From positions 124,001 to 188,000 of IMG/VR virus record IMGVR_UViG_3300043426_000266: a DNA stretch of 64,000 bases; one strand, given 5' to 3'. The notes beneath the pieces were generated by a model, which saw nothing but the letters and a program-made list of their open reading frames with translations, was not told the origin of the DNA and ran no database searches. Positions 10,324 through 62,811 of this stretch are shown in pieces (the stretch's first letter is position 1; every line of letters begins with the position of its first letter). This DNA comes from a virus. The position numbers and the translations under genes were made by a program.

Positions 10324-11229
10324 ATGGATTTAATTAACGAAAAACGTGGTCTAATCGGGTATAAACTTAATCCGGTTGGGCCACACGTCTTCACTTACAA
10401 AGACATCGACCATAGCCAACCTATTTTTGGATTTTTAGGGGTTAAACTGGGTAACAAAACTATCTATATCGAAGTGATCTCTACTGCTGAAACTCGATTC
10501 TTAATGGGTTTGATTTTAAAAGCTATTATTGCTGAGAGCCACACAACTGATAGAGTTTACAACGAGGTGGATACGATTGATGCACTAATATCCCTGGGAT
10601 TTAATGTGGTGGGTATTAGTTCGATTAATAGACGTGAAGACACCTTGCTTCATGACTTTGAAACCACATACCCGAACTACCTTGTTGCCAAAAAGCACTT
10701 TAAACCAAGTACTCAGCTGGCATCGACCGCGACTTATTTAAGGCGCTCATCGTATCAAGTTAGATTGGAGATCATTAGAGAGATATCTAATTCTAACTTT
10801 GACAACAAACACCTTGCCCCAGAGAGTTTTAATTATCAACAACGTTATATTCCTGTTAAGTATCATAATACCAACAGAAACACGATGTTAAACTTCCACC
10901 AACAACTTTGGTTAACTAATATTCCATTCCCCAACTTTTCTAAATTCTTTGATGTGTTCTTTGAAGCAGTAGATGTTTTGGTTGCGAGTCTACATCGTAG
11001 ATACGCAAATGAAAATATTTACCACAGAATCTTTGCTTCATTGAGTATTTTGAAGGTAAATGGGTTTACGTTTAGACCAGCAATGATTACCCGCATGGCA
11101 AAAGGTCAATTTGTCATTACACACCGACCATATCTACAGCAAGATCGTTTATTATCAAAAGATGATTATCTGTTATTAAAACCAGTGGTTGACGCACTCT
11201 CGATATTATCAAAAGAGGTTAAACAATGA
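10324..11229 (+). CDS. Unknown 301-aa protein
   Basis: ATG 10324 follows AAGGATTTTGCA. A soluble, basic, mixed alpha/beta protein with no motif I recognise. Its stop overlaps the start of the HD hydrolase gene (ATGA at 11226-11229), so the two are coupled and may share a process. Confidence 0.65.
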   Translation: MDLINEKRGLIGYKLNPVGPHVFTYKDIDHSQPIFGFLGVKLGNKTIYIEVISTAETRFLMGLILKAIIAESHTTDRVYNEVDTIDALISLGFNVVGISSINRREDTLLHDFETTYPNYLVAKKHFKPSTQLASTATYLRRSSYQVRLEIIREISNSNFDNKHLAPESFNYQQRYIPVKYHNTNRNTMLNFHQQLWLTNIPFPNFSKFFDVFFEAVDVLVASLHRRYANENIYHRIFASLSILKVNGFTFRPAMITRMAKGQFVITHRPYLQQDRLLSKDDYLLLKPVVDALSILSKEVKQ

Positions 11230-60110: not shown

Positions 60111-60574
60111 CGCCTGATGGCCAGCATGTTTTACATATCGAGTATGGTACGAGTGAGCCTGAAGTTATTCCTCGTATCATGGTCGCTGCTGATGAGTTTA
60201 GGTTAGGGCTTGGTGTAAGTACAATTAATGGTTTCGAACGAGCAGCGATAAGACAGGATGTCTATGATCAAGTGTTTTTAAAGGAATCCGATCACCCTTA
60301 TTCAACGATTCGCATGAGTAATAAAGAGCGGTATTCTTCAACCCATTTGTGGTATAGTCGTATGGCAGAGTTTATGCTTTATAACGCCGCTGAGAAAACG
60401 GGGTTATCATTCGTAGAGTTTGTTAAAATGCCAACATGGTTTGTTGAAAATACACTCTCGACACTTAGACAACAAAGTAAAGACACGAGACAGGGCGCTG
60501 CAAGTCTTCAAAAAGACATTGAGAAGATGGGTGATGCTGCTGTTGAAAACTTTTCCAACATGAAAAAACGGTAG
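60056..60574 (+). CDS. C-terminal part of 57777 protein in the -1 frame
   Basis: This frame opens at 60017 and has no ATG, GTG or TTG with a ribosome site before ATG 60179, yet the intervening ~40 codons look like protein (YPRPPKILIGNEEF, HVLHIEYGTSEPEVIPRI). It is therefore most simply an extension of the upstream gene reached at the U UUU UUU run. The C-terminal 100 residues are helical with a coiled-coil end (LQKDIEKMGDAAVENF). If translated independently it would begin at 60179 (131 aa). A perfect 9-bp hairpin (60089-60110) follows the slip site by 32 bases. Confidence 0.55.
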   Translation, partial: YPRPPKILIGNEEFNRTLPPDGQHVLHIEYGTSEPEVIPRIMVAADEFRLGLGVSTINGFERAAIRQDVYDQVFLKESDHPYSTIRMSNKERYSSTHLWYSRMAEFMLYNAAEKTGLSFVEFVKMPTWFVENTLSTLRQQSKDTRQGAASLQKDIEKMGDAAVENFSNMKKR

Positions 60575-60596
60575 GGTAATTACCCTACCGTTTTAT
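60565..60596 (+). terminator. Intrinsic terminator
   Basis: AAAACGGTAGGGTAA/TTACCCTACCGTTTT hairpin right after the stop at 60574. Confidence 0.85.
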
Positions 60597-60609
60597 GGAT
60601 TAAAATATT

Positions 60610-60630
60610 TTTAGATATATTATTTAAGAG
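60610..60630 (+). promoter_or_regulatory. Weak early-type promoter box in noncoding region
   Basis: TTAGATATATTATTTAAGAG shares the ATATATTATTTA core but lacks CATGA. Any transcript would meet the terminator at 60680 after ~60 bases. Confidence 0.35.
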
Positions 60631-60679
60631 CTATCTGAATATATTGCAAGCCTGAAAAATAATAGTCTATCGCATAAAT

Positions 60680-60706
60680 AAAGAAGGGGCAATTGCCCCT
60701 TCTTTA
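60680..60706. terminator. Terminator, left border of noncoding hairpin region
   Basis: AAAGAAGGGGCAATTGCCCCTTCTTT, same core as at 536, 47149 and 60995. Confidence 0.85.
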
Positions 60707-60725
60707 AGTATATTTAGTTAACGCA

Positions 60726-60876
60726 TTAACCCCGGAGAGACCAGCCTCTCCGGGGTTAAATGTCTGACCTTTCTGGAGTTGGGTCAGAGGGGGTAGTGCC
60801 CATTCTACACTTACCCTTTATGATAAACTTAACATTCATGAGACTTTCTCATGAATCAATCGGTGTTAAGTTTATC
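60726..60876. ncRNA. Candidate structured noncoding RNA with four consecutive hairpins
   Basis: No ORF. Hairpins in order: 60726-60759, a 14-bp perfect stem TTAACCCCGGAGAG / CTCTCCGGGGTTAA; 60764-60787, CTGACC/GGTCAG; 60791-60816, GGGTAGTG/CAC(T)TACCC; 60822-60876, a 13-bp outer stem GATAAACTTAACA / TGTTAAGTTTATC enclosing a 9-bp inner stem TTCATGAGA-CTT-TCTCATGAA. It lies between two terminators with the same core, which suggests a separate RNA rather than a UTR. It could also be a DNA element such as an origin or packaging site. Strand unknown. Confidence 0.45.
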
Positions 60877-60994
60877 ACATACTAATAGAAAAAAATTGTA
60901 TTTAAAGATATGTATGCAGCTTACGATTATTTCATAAGACAATCTTTGAACCAGTCAAATTTGAACTCTTTGAGTTTACAATCCTGAAAAAATA
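60877..60994. other. Noncoding AT-rich stretch, no gene seen
   Basis: Between the hairpin region and the terminator at 60995. No ORF; one small hairpin AACTC-TTT-GAGTT at 60964-60976. May be the rest of the candidate RNA. Confidence 0.4.
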
Positions 60995-61022
60995 AAGGGG
61001 CAATTGCCCCTTCTACTTTTTT
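60995..61022. terminator. Bidirectional terminator
   Basis: AAGGGGCAATTGCCCCTT with T run on the plus side and an A-rich left side; also serves the minus-strand polymerase gene ending at 61024. Confidence 0.8.
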
Positions 61023-61023
61023 G

Positions 61024-62754
61024 TCAATTAACGGTTATTTCCTGATACATCTTAGCGGGTAGTTTGTGCGCGGCAGCAAAGTCTTTATGAAGATCTTGTA
61101 ATGTTTTTAATTTGTACAAGTCTCGACACGTCGTAATTGCATTTGCATACCCCCCGGTCAGATTCACACAAACATAACGGTGTTGGAATGAATCAATCCC
61201 TTGTATCTTACATATCTCAAATACCGTGTTTCTTCGACACAACCCCAGCAAGATACCGATCTTAGGATAAGCTGATATCAAATCCAGGTCGTAGTTATGA
61301 ATCGTTGTTCTAGATTTTAAGAACGTTTTATCATCTTTAACTAATTGGATTCCTATATCTTCAAGATGAGTCGCCTCTAGAATATTAATCCAAAGTTCCT
61401 TACCAATAACCATCTTGTCAATCTCTTCCTTCATTCGATCAGAAGTTGTAGACATAACCTGGTCATTCTCTAGGCAGAAAGTATGCAAGGCATCACATAG
61501 TTTTCTAGGGTTAGAGTTAAAGTCTTTAATTTGAGAATTACCCAACAACAAAGGTAACTTGGTGCTGATGTCTTTAAACTTCTCATCGAACTCCTCTACG
61601 CGAATACAGTCAATCAAACCATAAGCACAGTATTCCTTTTTAAAGTGTTTCTGCATCACCATGTGCCATCTCCCAGTACCCGTAGGGATGCCTTTTAATA
61701 ACTCATGTTCTACGTGATATTTACCTTGACCCAGATACTTCGTTGTTAAGTAGTCTAATGAATAAGAAGGCTCTGCTTTCATTTTACGAAGACCGCGAAA
61801 TAAGGAAGCAGGGTCAATAAAGTAAAATGGTGAAGTGGAATATACTGTATGCCATTGTTCCGATACTGCCAGGGGTCTAGAAGTACCATCATCTTTACGT
61901 TTCACTAATGGTCCTCGTTTGAATTCAAAATGTTTGAATTCAGGAGGAACAGAGGAATGAGAGAAAATGTCTTTAGGATCAACATTAGCATCCCTGAGGA
62001 TATCTAATATTACACTCATATCGTAGTTGATGTTCCAAAAACCAATAACGTCAGGCATCCATTCATTGGCTTTCTCGTACATCTTTTTAATTCCATCAAC
62101 CATATTGTTAACGAAATCTAATTCTAGTTTAATCTTTCTATCTTTTATTTCTGGCAACTCATCTTCAATAAACTTACGATATTCTTCAGCAGTGTCTCCA
62201 GGATTAACCCACTTGTTTAAAACAACCTGATAAGCTTTGTCTTTAAAACTCATGCTAAAGATAATCATCCCAAGATTACCATTCATGTCAAATTCAGTAT
62301 CTTGAACCGCGACAGTTAAACGGCTACGGGTACTGCGTTTGAATTTCTTTTCGTATTGAAGCTTAACAACAGAGTTAATGTCAATATCACAACCGTATAC
62401 AAACGGGCTACGAAAGCACTCTGCTAATCGCATTTGCGGGGTGTAGGGTTTACTAAGTTTGTACTGGACTTGACGAATCAGGTCACGTTGAGTTGTTTTG
62501 TAATTGATTAAGTTCTGTAGGTATTCTGTCTCTAATTTGTATTGATGTTTTTGATGCGCTTTTTTTGTAATCCAAAAATCACGTTTAACGTTCTCATGGA
62601 ACACATACTCAGGGGTACACCCGTCAGTACCATCTGCGTTTTTAACAAAACGATTACGTTTAACAAATACAGCGTCCCCCTCATGGGATTTATTATTAAT
62701 TGCGTAGCATGAATGAATATATTCAAATTCAGGATTATTAACATCGGTACTCAT
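61024..62754 (-). CDS. DNA polymerase B, N-terminal half (exonuclease and motif A)
   Basis: Starts at ATG 62754 on the minus strand, behind GGAGGATAC; 576 aa. All three proofreading exonuclease motifs are present: Exo I QDTEFD (D152, E154), Exo II GFWNINYD (D245) and Exo III YGLID (Y378, D382). Motif A of the polymerase site is YDLDLISAYPK (D491, YP 496-497). The protein stops ~80 residues later with no motif B or C; these are in the 718-aa product of 30588-32744 on the other strand. Each half alone would lack catalytic residues for synthesis, so they should work as a complex. Confidence 0.88.
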   Translation of the reverse strand: MSTDVNNPEFEYIHSCYAINNKSHEGDAVFVKRNRFVKNADGTDGCTPEYVFHENVKRDFWITKKAHQKHQYKLETEYLQNLINYKTTQRDLIRQVQYKLSKPYTPQMRLAECFRSPFVYGCDIDINSVVKLQYEKKFKRSTRSRLTVAVQDTEFDMNGNLGMIIFSMSFKDKAYQVVLNKWVNPGDTAEEYRKFIEDELPEIKDRKIKLELDFVNNMVDGIKKMYEKANEWMPDVIGFWNINYDMSVILDILRDANVDPKDIFSHSSVPPEFKHFEFKRGPLVKRKDDGTSRPLAVSEQWHTVYSTSPFYFIDPASLFRGLRKMKAEPSYSLDYLTTKYLGQGKYHVEHELLKGIPTGTGRWHMVMQKHFKKEYCAYGLIDCIRVEEFDEKFKDISTKLPLLLGNSQIKDFNSNPRKLCDALHTFCLENDQVMSTTSDRMKEEIDKMVIGKELWINILEATHLEDIGIQLVKDDKTFLKSRTTIHNYDLDLISAYPKIGILLGLCRRNTVFEICKIQGIDSFQHRYVCVNLTGGYANAITTCRDLYKLKTLQDLHKDFAAAHKLPAKMYQEITVN

Positions 62755-62811
62755 TTTTGTATCCTCCAACCTTCACATATACTCAAACCTCGTTTTATTA
62801 AAAATAAAAAT

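Follow-up and report, generated by a model that had tools for sequence, protein, structure and literature searches.

What is encoded in a stretch of 449 bp on which two phage genes converge, and would it act as RNA or as DNA? This question is raised by positions 60575-61023 of the 64,000-nt window analyzed here, which represents bases 124,001-188,000 of a virus record of 205,063 bp, hereafter G000. The record codes for a nuclear shell protein of the phiKZ type, several subunits of virion and non-virion RNA polymerases, the halves of a phiKZ-type DNA polymerase, GroEL and the major head protein, a gene content that identifies G000 as a nucleus-forming jumbo phage. Given that its DNA polymerase shows at best 36-37% identity to any sequence compared and has a terminal branch of 2.12 changes per site, the phage is, by sequence comparison, an isolated, deep lineage among phiKZ-like nucleus-forming jumbo phages.

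The gap lies between a + strand gene that stops at 60574 and a DNA polymerase gene on the - strand whose end is at 61024; it contains three terminators, T1-T3:

60179-60574, + strand: upstream gene, function unassigned, with weak matches to phrog_12109 and phrog_7580.
60565-60594, + strand: T1, a 13-bp perfect stem (AAAACGGTAGGGTAATTACCCTACCGTTTT) followed by TTTTATGG, which ends the upstream gene and overlaps its stop codon.
60679-60706, - strand: T2, a palindromic terminator (TAAAGAAGGGGCAATTGCCCCTTCTTTA) with the - strand tail TTTATTTATGCGATAG and the TTTATGC mark on the - strand only.
60994-61013, either strand: T3, which ends the - strand DNA polymerase gene and is T-rich on both strands.
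61024-62769, - strand: half of a phiKZ-type DNA polymerase (phrog_3011, E = 2e-143).

The original prediction of 450 bp without an ORF agrees with the measured gap, in which no ORF is credible. Of its two short ORFs, the one of 41 aa (+, 60760-60885) has a hexamer coding score at percentile 1.4 of the real genes and the one of 27 aa (-) a score at percentile 0.4; on these values, a small protein was rejected as its product.

The hairpin array

The central part of the gap is occupied by an array of four hairpins at 60723-60877, separated by linkers of 0, 0 and 2 nt:

60723-60763, either strand: H1, a 14-bp perfect GC-rich stem (17 bp if extended, with one bulge); the + strand loop is ACCAGC.
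60764-60787, either strand: H2, a 7-bp stem; the - strand loop CAACUCCAGAAA contains the anti-Shine-Dalgarno-like AACUCC.
60788-60818, either strand: H3, a stem of about 9 bp with a bulge and a 9-nt loop; TTTATGA follows on the + strand.
60821-60877, either strand: H4, a 14-bp outer stem around a 10-bp perfect inner stem, with a one-sided bulge of 7-8 nt.

All the stems that had been claimed for this region were recovered, namely the 14-bp perfect GC-rich stem as H1 (arms 60726-60739/60746-60759, with G-C pairs in 8 of 14 positions), the two smaller stems as H2 and H3, and the 13-bp stem enclosing a 9-bp stem as H4. Because the outer stem of H4 (60821-60834/60864-60877, 14 bp) and its inner stem (60834-60843/60847-60856, 10 bp) have one base in common, its description as 13 + 9/10 bp is accurate. 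Compared with 200 dinucleotide shuffles, the minimum free energy (MFE) of 60722-60882 corresponds to z-scores of -10.2 for the + RNA, -8.9 for the - RNA and -10.7 for DNA. The array ranks first for fold stability among the 3,401 sliding windows that cover the whole 205-kb genome, and no equally extreme intergenic window was found in phiKZ, pPa_SNUABM_DT01 or record G054. It shares perfect GC-rich stems of 10-16 bp with the hairpin terminators of G000; these are, however, single hairpins with mostly short loops that lie beside gene ends, whereas the array has four hairpins that follow closely on one another and do not border a gene end. Of two further features, a candidate kissing contact of 4 bp between H1 and H2 (CCAG/CUGG) could easily be a chance match, and the motif ACTTAAC/GTTAAGT in H4 fits the integron attC pattern RYYYAAC/GTTRRRY, a lead only and likely due to chance.

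Folding of this kind could also serve a DNA element such as a replication origin, a packaging site or a recombination site, acting as cruciforms or single-strand hairpins. The sequence folds equally well as DNA, the perfect palindromes are strand-symmetric, the flanks are AT-rich and a polymerase gene adjoins; however, a search for signs of a replication origin at the locus found neither iteron-like repeats nor a GC-skew transition, and the array is single-copy in the genome. Iterons and a skew transition are not common to all phage origins. On balance we regard a DNA element as improbable. The original prediction had offered a structured RNA or a DNA element, and of these the structured RNA is best supported, since the locus is noncoding, structured, placed between terminators and endowed with consistent - strand marks, whereas an origin or packaging signal has found no positive support.

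Terminators and the polarity of the locus

The claim that both borders are near-identical GGGGCAATTGCCCC terminators holds for their core, which is indeed identical, but the element is generic and the gap contains three terminators. As exact copies of this core occur seven times in the 205 kb genome, the GGGGCAATTGCCCC borders can be considered ordinary terminators. T1 and T3 already end both neighbours, and T2 is thus an additional terminator, as a separate unit needs; convergent gene pairs elsewhere in G000 mostly have one common terminator. The polarity of T2 can be deduced from the sequence TTTATGC that often trails the hairpin terminators of G000. Where a terminator separates co-directional genes, TATG is found on the sense side in 22/36 cases and on the antisense side in 3/36, so that T2, which carries it on its - side only, most likely ends - strand transcripts. 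The mark is not strand-specific at the terminators of phiKZ and two other relatives, and in G000 the + strand of H3 carries a TTTATG mark in an array whose hairpins are strand-symmetric.

The same mark is absent from the - side of T3, and therefore the polymerase mRNA could continue to T2. The strongest rival to a separate noncoding RNA (ncRNA) is that the array forms a structured 3' UTR on the mRNA of the DNA polymerase, which would be read past T3 through the hairpins to T2, with the array protecting the 3' end or being released by processing, as has been suggested for the 3' UTR RNA of PHIKZ298. The distribution of the terminator mark, present on the - strand of T2 and missing from that of T3, fits this reading, for which phiKZ offers a precedent: an ncRNA of about 100 nt, confirmed by northern blot and presumed to derive from the 3' UTR of PHIKZ298 (PMC8545117). 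On the - strand, however, T3 is a strong T-tailed hairpin, and the edge of the array, downstream of T3, has a site that resembles a promoter; we judge the 3' UTR explanation unlikely.

The repeated terminators might alternatively reflect recombination between them, which would have left between the convergent genes either a relic without function or an insulator. Consistent with this possibility, the surroundings of T2 and T3 look duplicated (p = 0.015), the early promoter described below has decayed and terminators of one or two hairpins are common in G000. Against it, other convergent pairs of the phage mostly need a single common terminator, and four abutting stems would be expected to decay without selection. 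A relic or insulator is the least probable of the explanations considered here, and a very unlikely one.

A side observation concerns the TATG mark itself, which we compared in four deeply diverged phiKZ-like phages: G000, phiKZ (L111-L124), pPa_SNUABM_DT01 (L125-L138) and G054 (L139-L150). In all of them TATG, often as TATGCCG, very often follows terminator stems, mostly at a distance of 0-4 nt, including convergent settings without a downstream gene; in G054 it is present at 21/24 on each side. The terminator-associated TATG, equivalent to the core of the late promoter of the non-virion RNA polymerase (nvRNAP), might work as a pausing or terminating element that resembles a promoter. Two papers on the phiKZ RNA polymerases that we searched for this association do not mention terminators (PMC4666361; PMC12809450).

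Candidate promoters and the predicted transcript

Promoter-like sequences are present on both sides of the array, and the transcript that we propose extends from one of them to T2:

60590-60628, + strand: degenerate copy of an early (virion RNA polymerase) promoter, with a PWM score of 10.8 versus 15-25 for typical sites.
60878-60893, - strand: putative late promoter of the non-virion RNA polymerase, TTTTTCTATTAGTATG, with TATG at 60881-60878 and the start G at 60878.
60672-60878, - strand: proposed ncRNA H4-H3-H2-H1-T2 of about 205-207 nt, with an MFE of -94.0 kcal/mol, a z-score of -10.1 and a mean pair probability of 0.94.

A motif search upstream of genes retrieved the early promoter motif (C)AGATATATATTATTTACATGAA at about 30 sites in G000, almost every one of which precedes a gene and lies on the + strand. 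The copy in the gap differs from the early promoter near G000:121,304-121,341 only by two indels of 2 nt each, an insertion and a deletion. Since the latter falls inside the TATATATA core and ACATG is missing, the copy is probably weak or dead. An RNA of the + strand would have to be read from the promoter copy at 60613 via T2 and the array to T3. The copy does show real sequence homology, the T tract of T3 is good on the + strand and a closing stem around the array (60701-60715/60894-60908) is well formed on this strand only; yet the promoter lacks 2 nt of its core as well as ACATG, transcription would need to pass T2 and the closing stem is within chance (p = 0.11). We therefore give a + strand transcript little credence.

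The late promoter of phiKZ consists of TATG, the last G of which is the transcription start (PMC4666361; PMC12809450). The same rule seems valid in G000, because TATG peaks 24-31 nt upstream of its start codons, with 26 sites versus 0-11 in other bins; as in phiKZ, the motif with its G start thus lies upstream of genes (PMC4666361). The TATG at 60881-60878 on the - strand is the best of the gap, with a context score of 4.0 that is matched by 0.9% of the TATGs in coding sequences. This predicted promoter precedes hairpins, whereas the late promoters of phiKZ precede genes, and it sits one base before H4, right at the array edge. The probability that some TATG falls no more than 3 nt from one of the two proper array edges by chance is about 3%, and the motif is short and was scored post hoc, after the locus had been seen; for these reasons its position constitutes support rather than proof.

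In the ncRNA reading that we prefer, the late RNA polymerase would use the G of TATG (60878) as its start, a single base ahead of H4, and would then copy H4, H3, H2 and H1 in turn, nearly free of linkers, until the - strand transcript would stop at T2, around 60672-60679. The product, about 205 nt long and with five hairpins, would be very stable. We infer that the array is transcribed, that the - strand is the one transcribed, that the timing is late and that the RNA itself is the functional product. Taken as a whole, a small ncRNA gene of the - strand, transcribed late into an RNA of about 205 nt, has in our estimation an even chance of being the correct description of the gap.

Relatives, precedents and possible function

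The original exclusion of tRNA, tmRNA and group I introns proved sound. Rfam returned no match above the gathering threshold in the window and in all but 4 kb of the rest of the genome, the best subthreshold match being His_leader with 31.6 of 49 bits, and ARAGORN was negative for tRNA and tmRNA; on these negative results, a known RNA was rejected. Searches for the array in other genomes were equally negative. Blastn searches of phage and plasmid sequences yielded at most chance-level matches, scans of viral and genome contigs with DNA polymerase and RNA polymerase (RNAP) as single proteins found no homologues, and exact-pattern scans with H1, H2 and H4 gave no match. A covariance model of the array (R1) found no homologue in 80 related records, its sole match (E = 0.01) being rejected as a single terminator hairpin, and the gaps at 85 related DNA polymerase loci contain no comparable array. 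One of the related DNA polymerase genes is split by a structured insertion (L089:7345-7788) that looks like a self-splicing intron.

Despite its isolation, the array as ncRNA has a precedent in phiKZ, where Grad-seq found two ncRNA candidates derived from UTRs (PMC8545117). The one from the 3' UTR of PHIKZ298 resembles the array in being small, structured and intergenic, in belonging to a nucleus-forming jumbo phage and in ending with a terminator stem-loop, but it has about 100 nt and two stem-loops, and no start of its own has been mapped for it. The other, from the 5' UTR of p40, is similarly structured and without ORF, with about 180 nt, but lies in a 5' leader and has two stem-loops, whereas the gap has convergent neighbours and no following gene (PMC8545117). 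Model R1 found no match in sequence or structure to these UTR ncRNAs in the phiKZ record. Phage ncRNAs, including those of phiKZ, are hence already known, and the array represents a new candidate whose stem-loops outnumber those of either example from phiKZ.

As to function, our guess is that a trans-acting regulatory or protein-binding RNA is the most likely class, on account of the anti-Shine-Dalgarno-like loop of H2 and the complementarity of H4, over 16 nt, to an early leader. GGAGTT, the partner of the loop AACUCC, is present at 13/152 predicted start sites. The leader complementary to H4 belongs to the early transcript near G000:28,307 (p = 0.018 versus shuffles); as comparable 16-nt matches were obtained for 10/60 random genome segments, this antisense match is not significant relative to real segments of the genome and is only a lead.

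A second long noncoding gap with several tandem hairpins is present at G000:119,366-119,860 (L104:19366-19860). It has a z-score of -7.3 for 119,560-119,780, ends in a hairpin followed by TTTATGC and can be considered a further ncRNA candidate. It is tempting, if rather far-fetched at present, to combine the array with that at G000:119.4-119.86 kb into a new class of stable multi-hairpin late RNAs of nucleus-forming phages, which would act in trans, for example by silencing early messages via the anti-Shine-Dalgarno loop and a seed in H4. Calling the array a new class would take relatives or a function. To our knowledge, little has been reported on the ncRNAs of nucleus-forming jumbo phages, and the array, as a candidate that is strongly structured, flanked by terminators and has predicted ends, offers a concrete target. 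In these phages transcription occurs inside the phage nucleus and translation outside it; if the RNA is made, it would bear on how phage RNA works under this separation.

Additional strong hairpins are found elsewhere in G000. Two genes end in the common 3' sequence AATCGAAATAAAAGTAGAAGGGGCAATTGCCCCTTCTCTTTAATATGC, at G000:10,670-10,706 and 80,162-80,198, and each of these ends is followed downstream by an extra strong hairpin (10,785-10,820 and 80,241-80,275, respectively) that is not a terminator.
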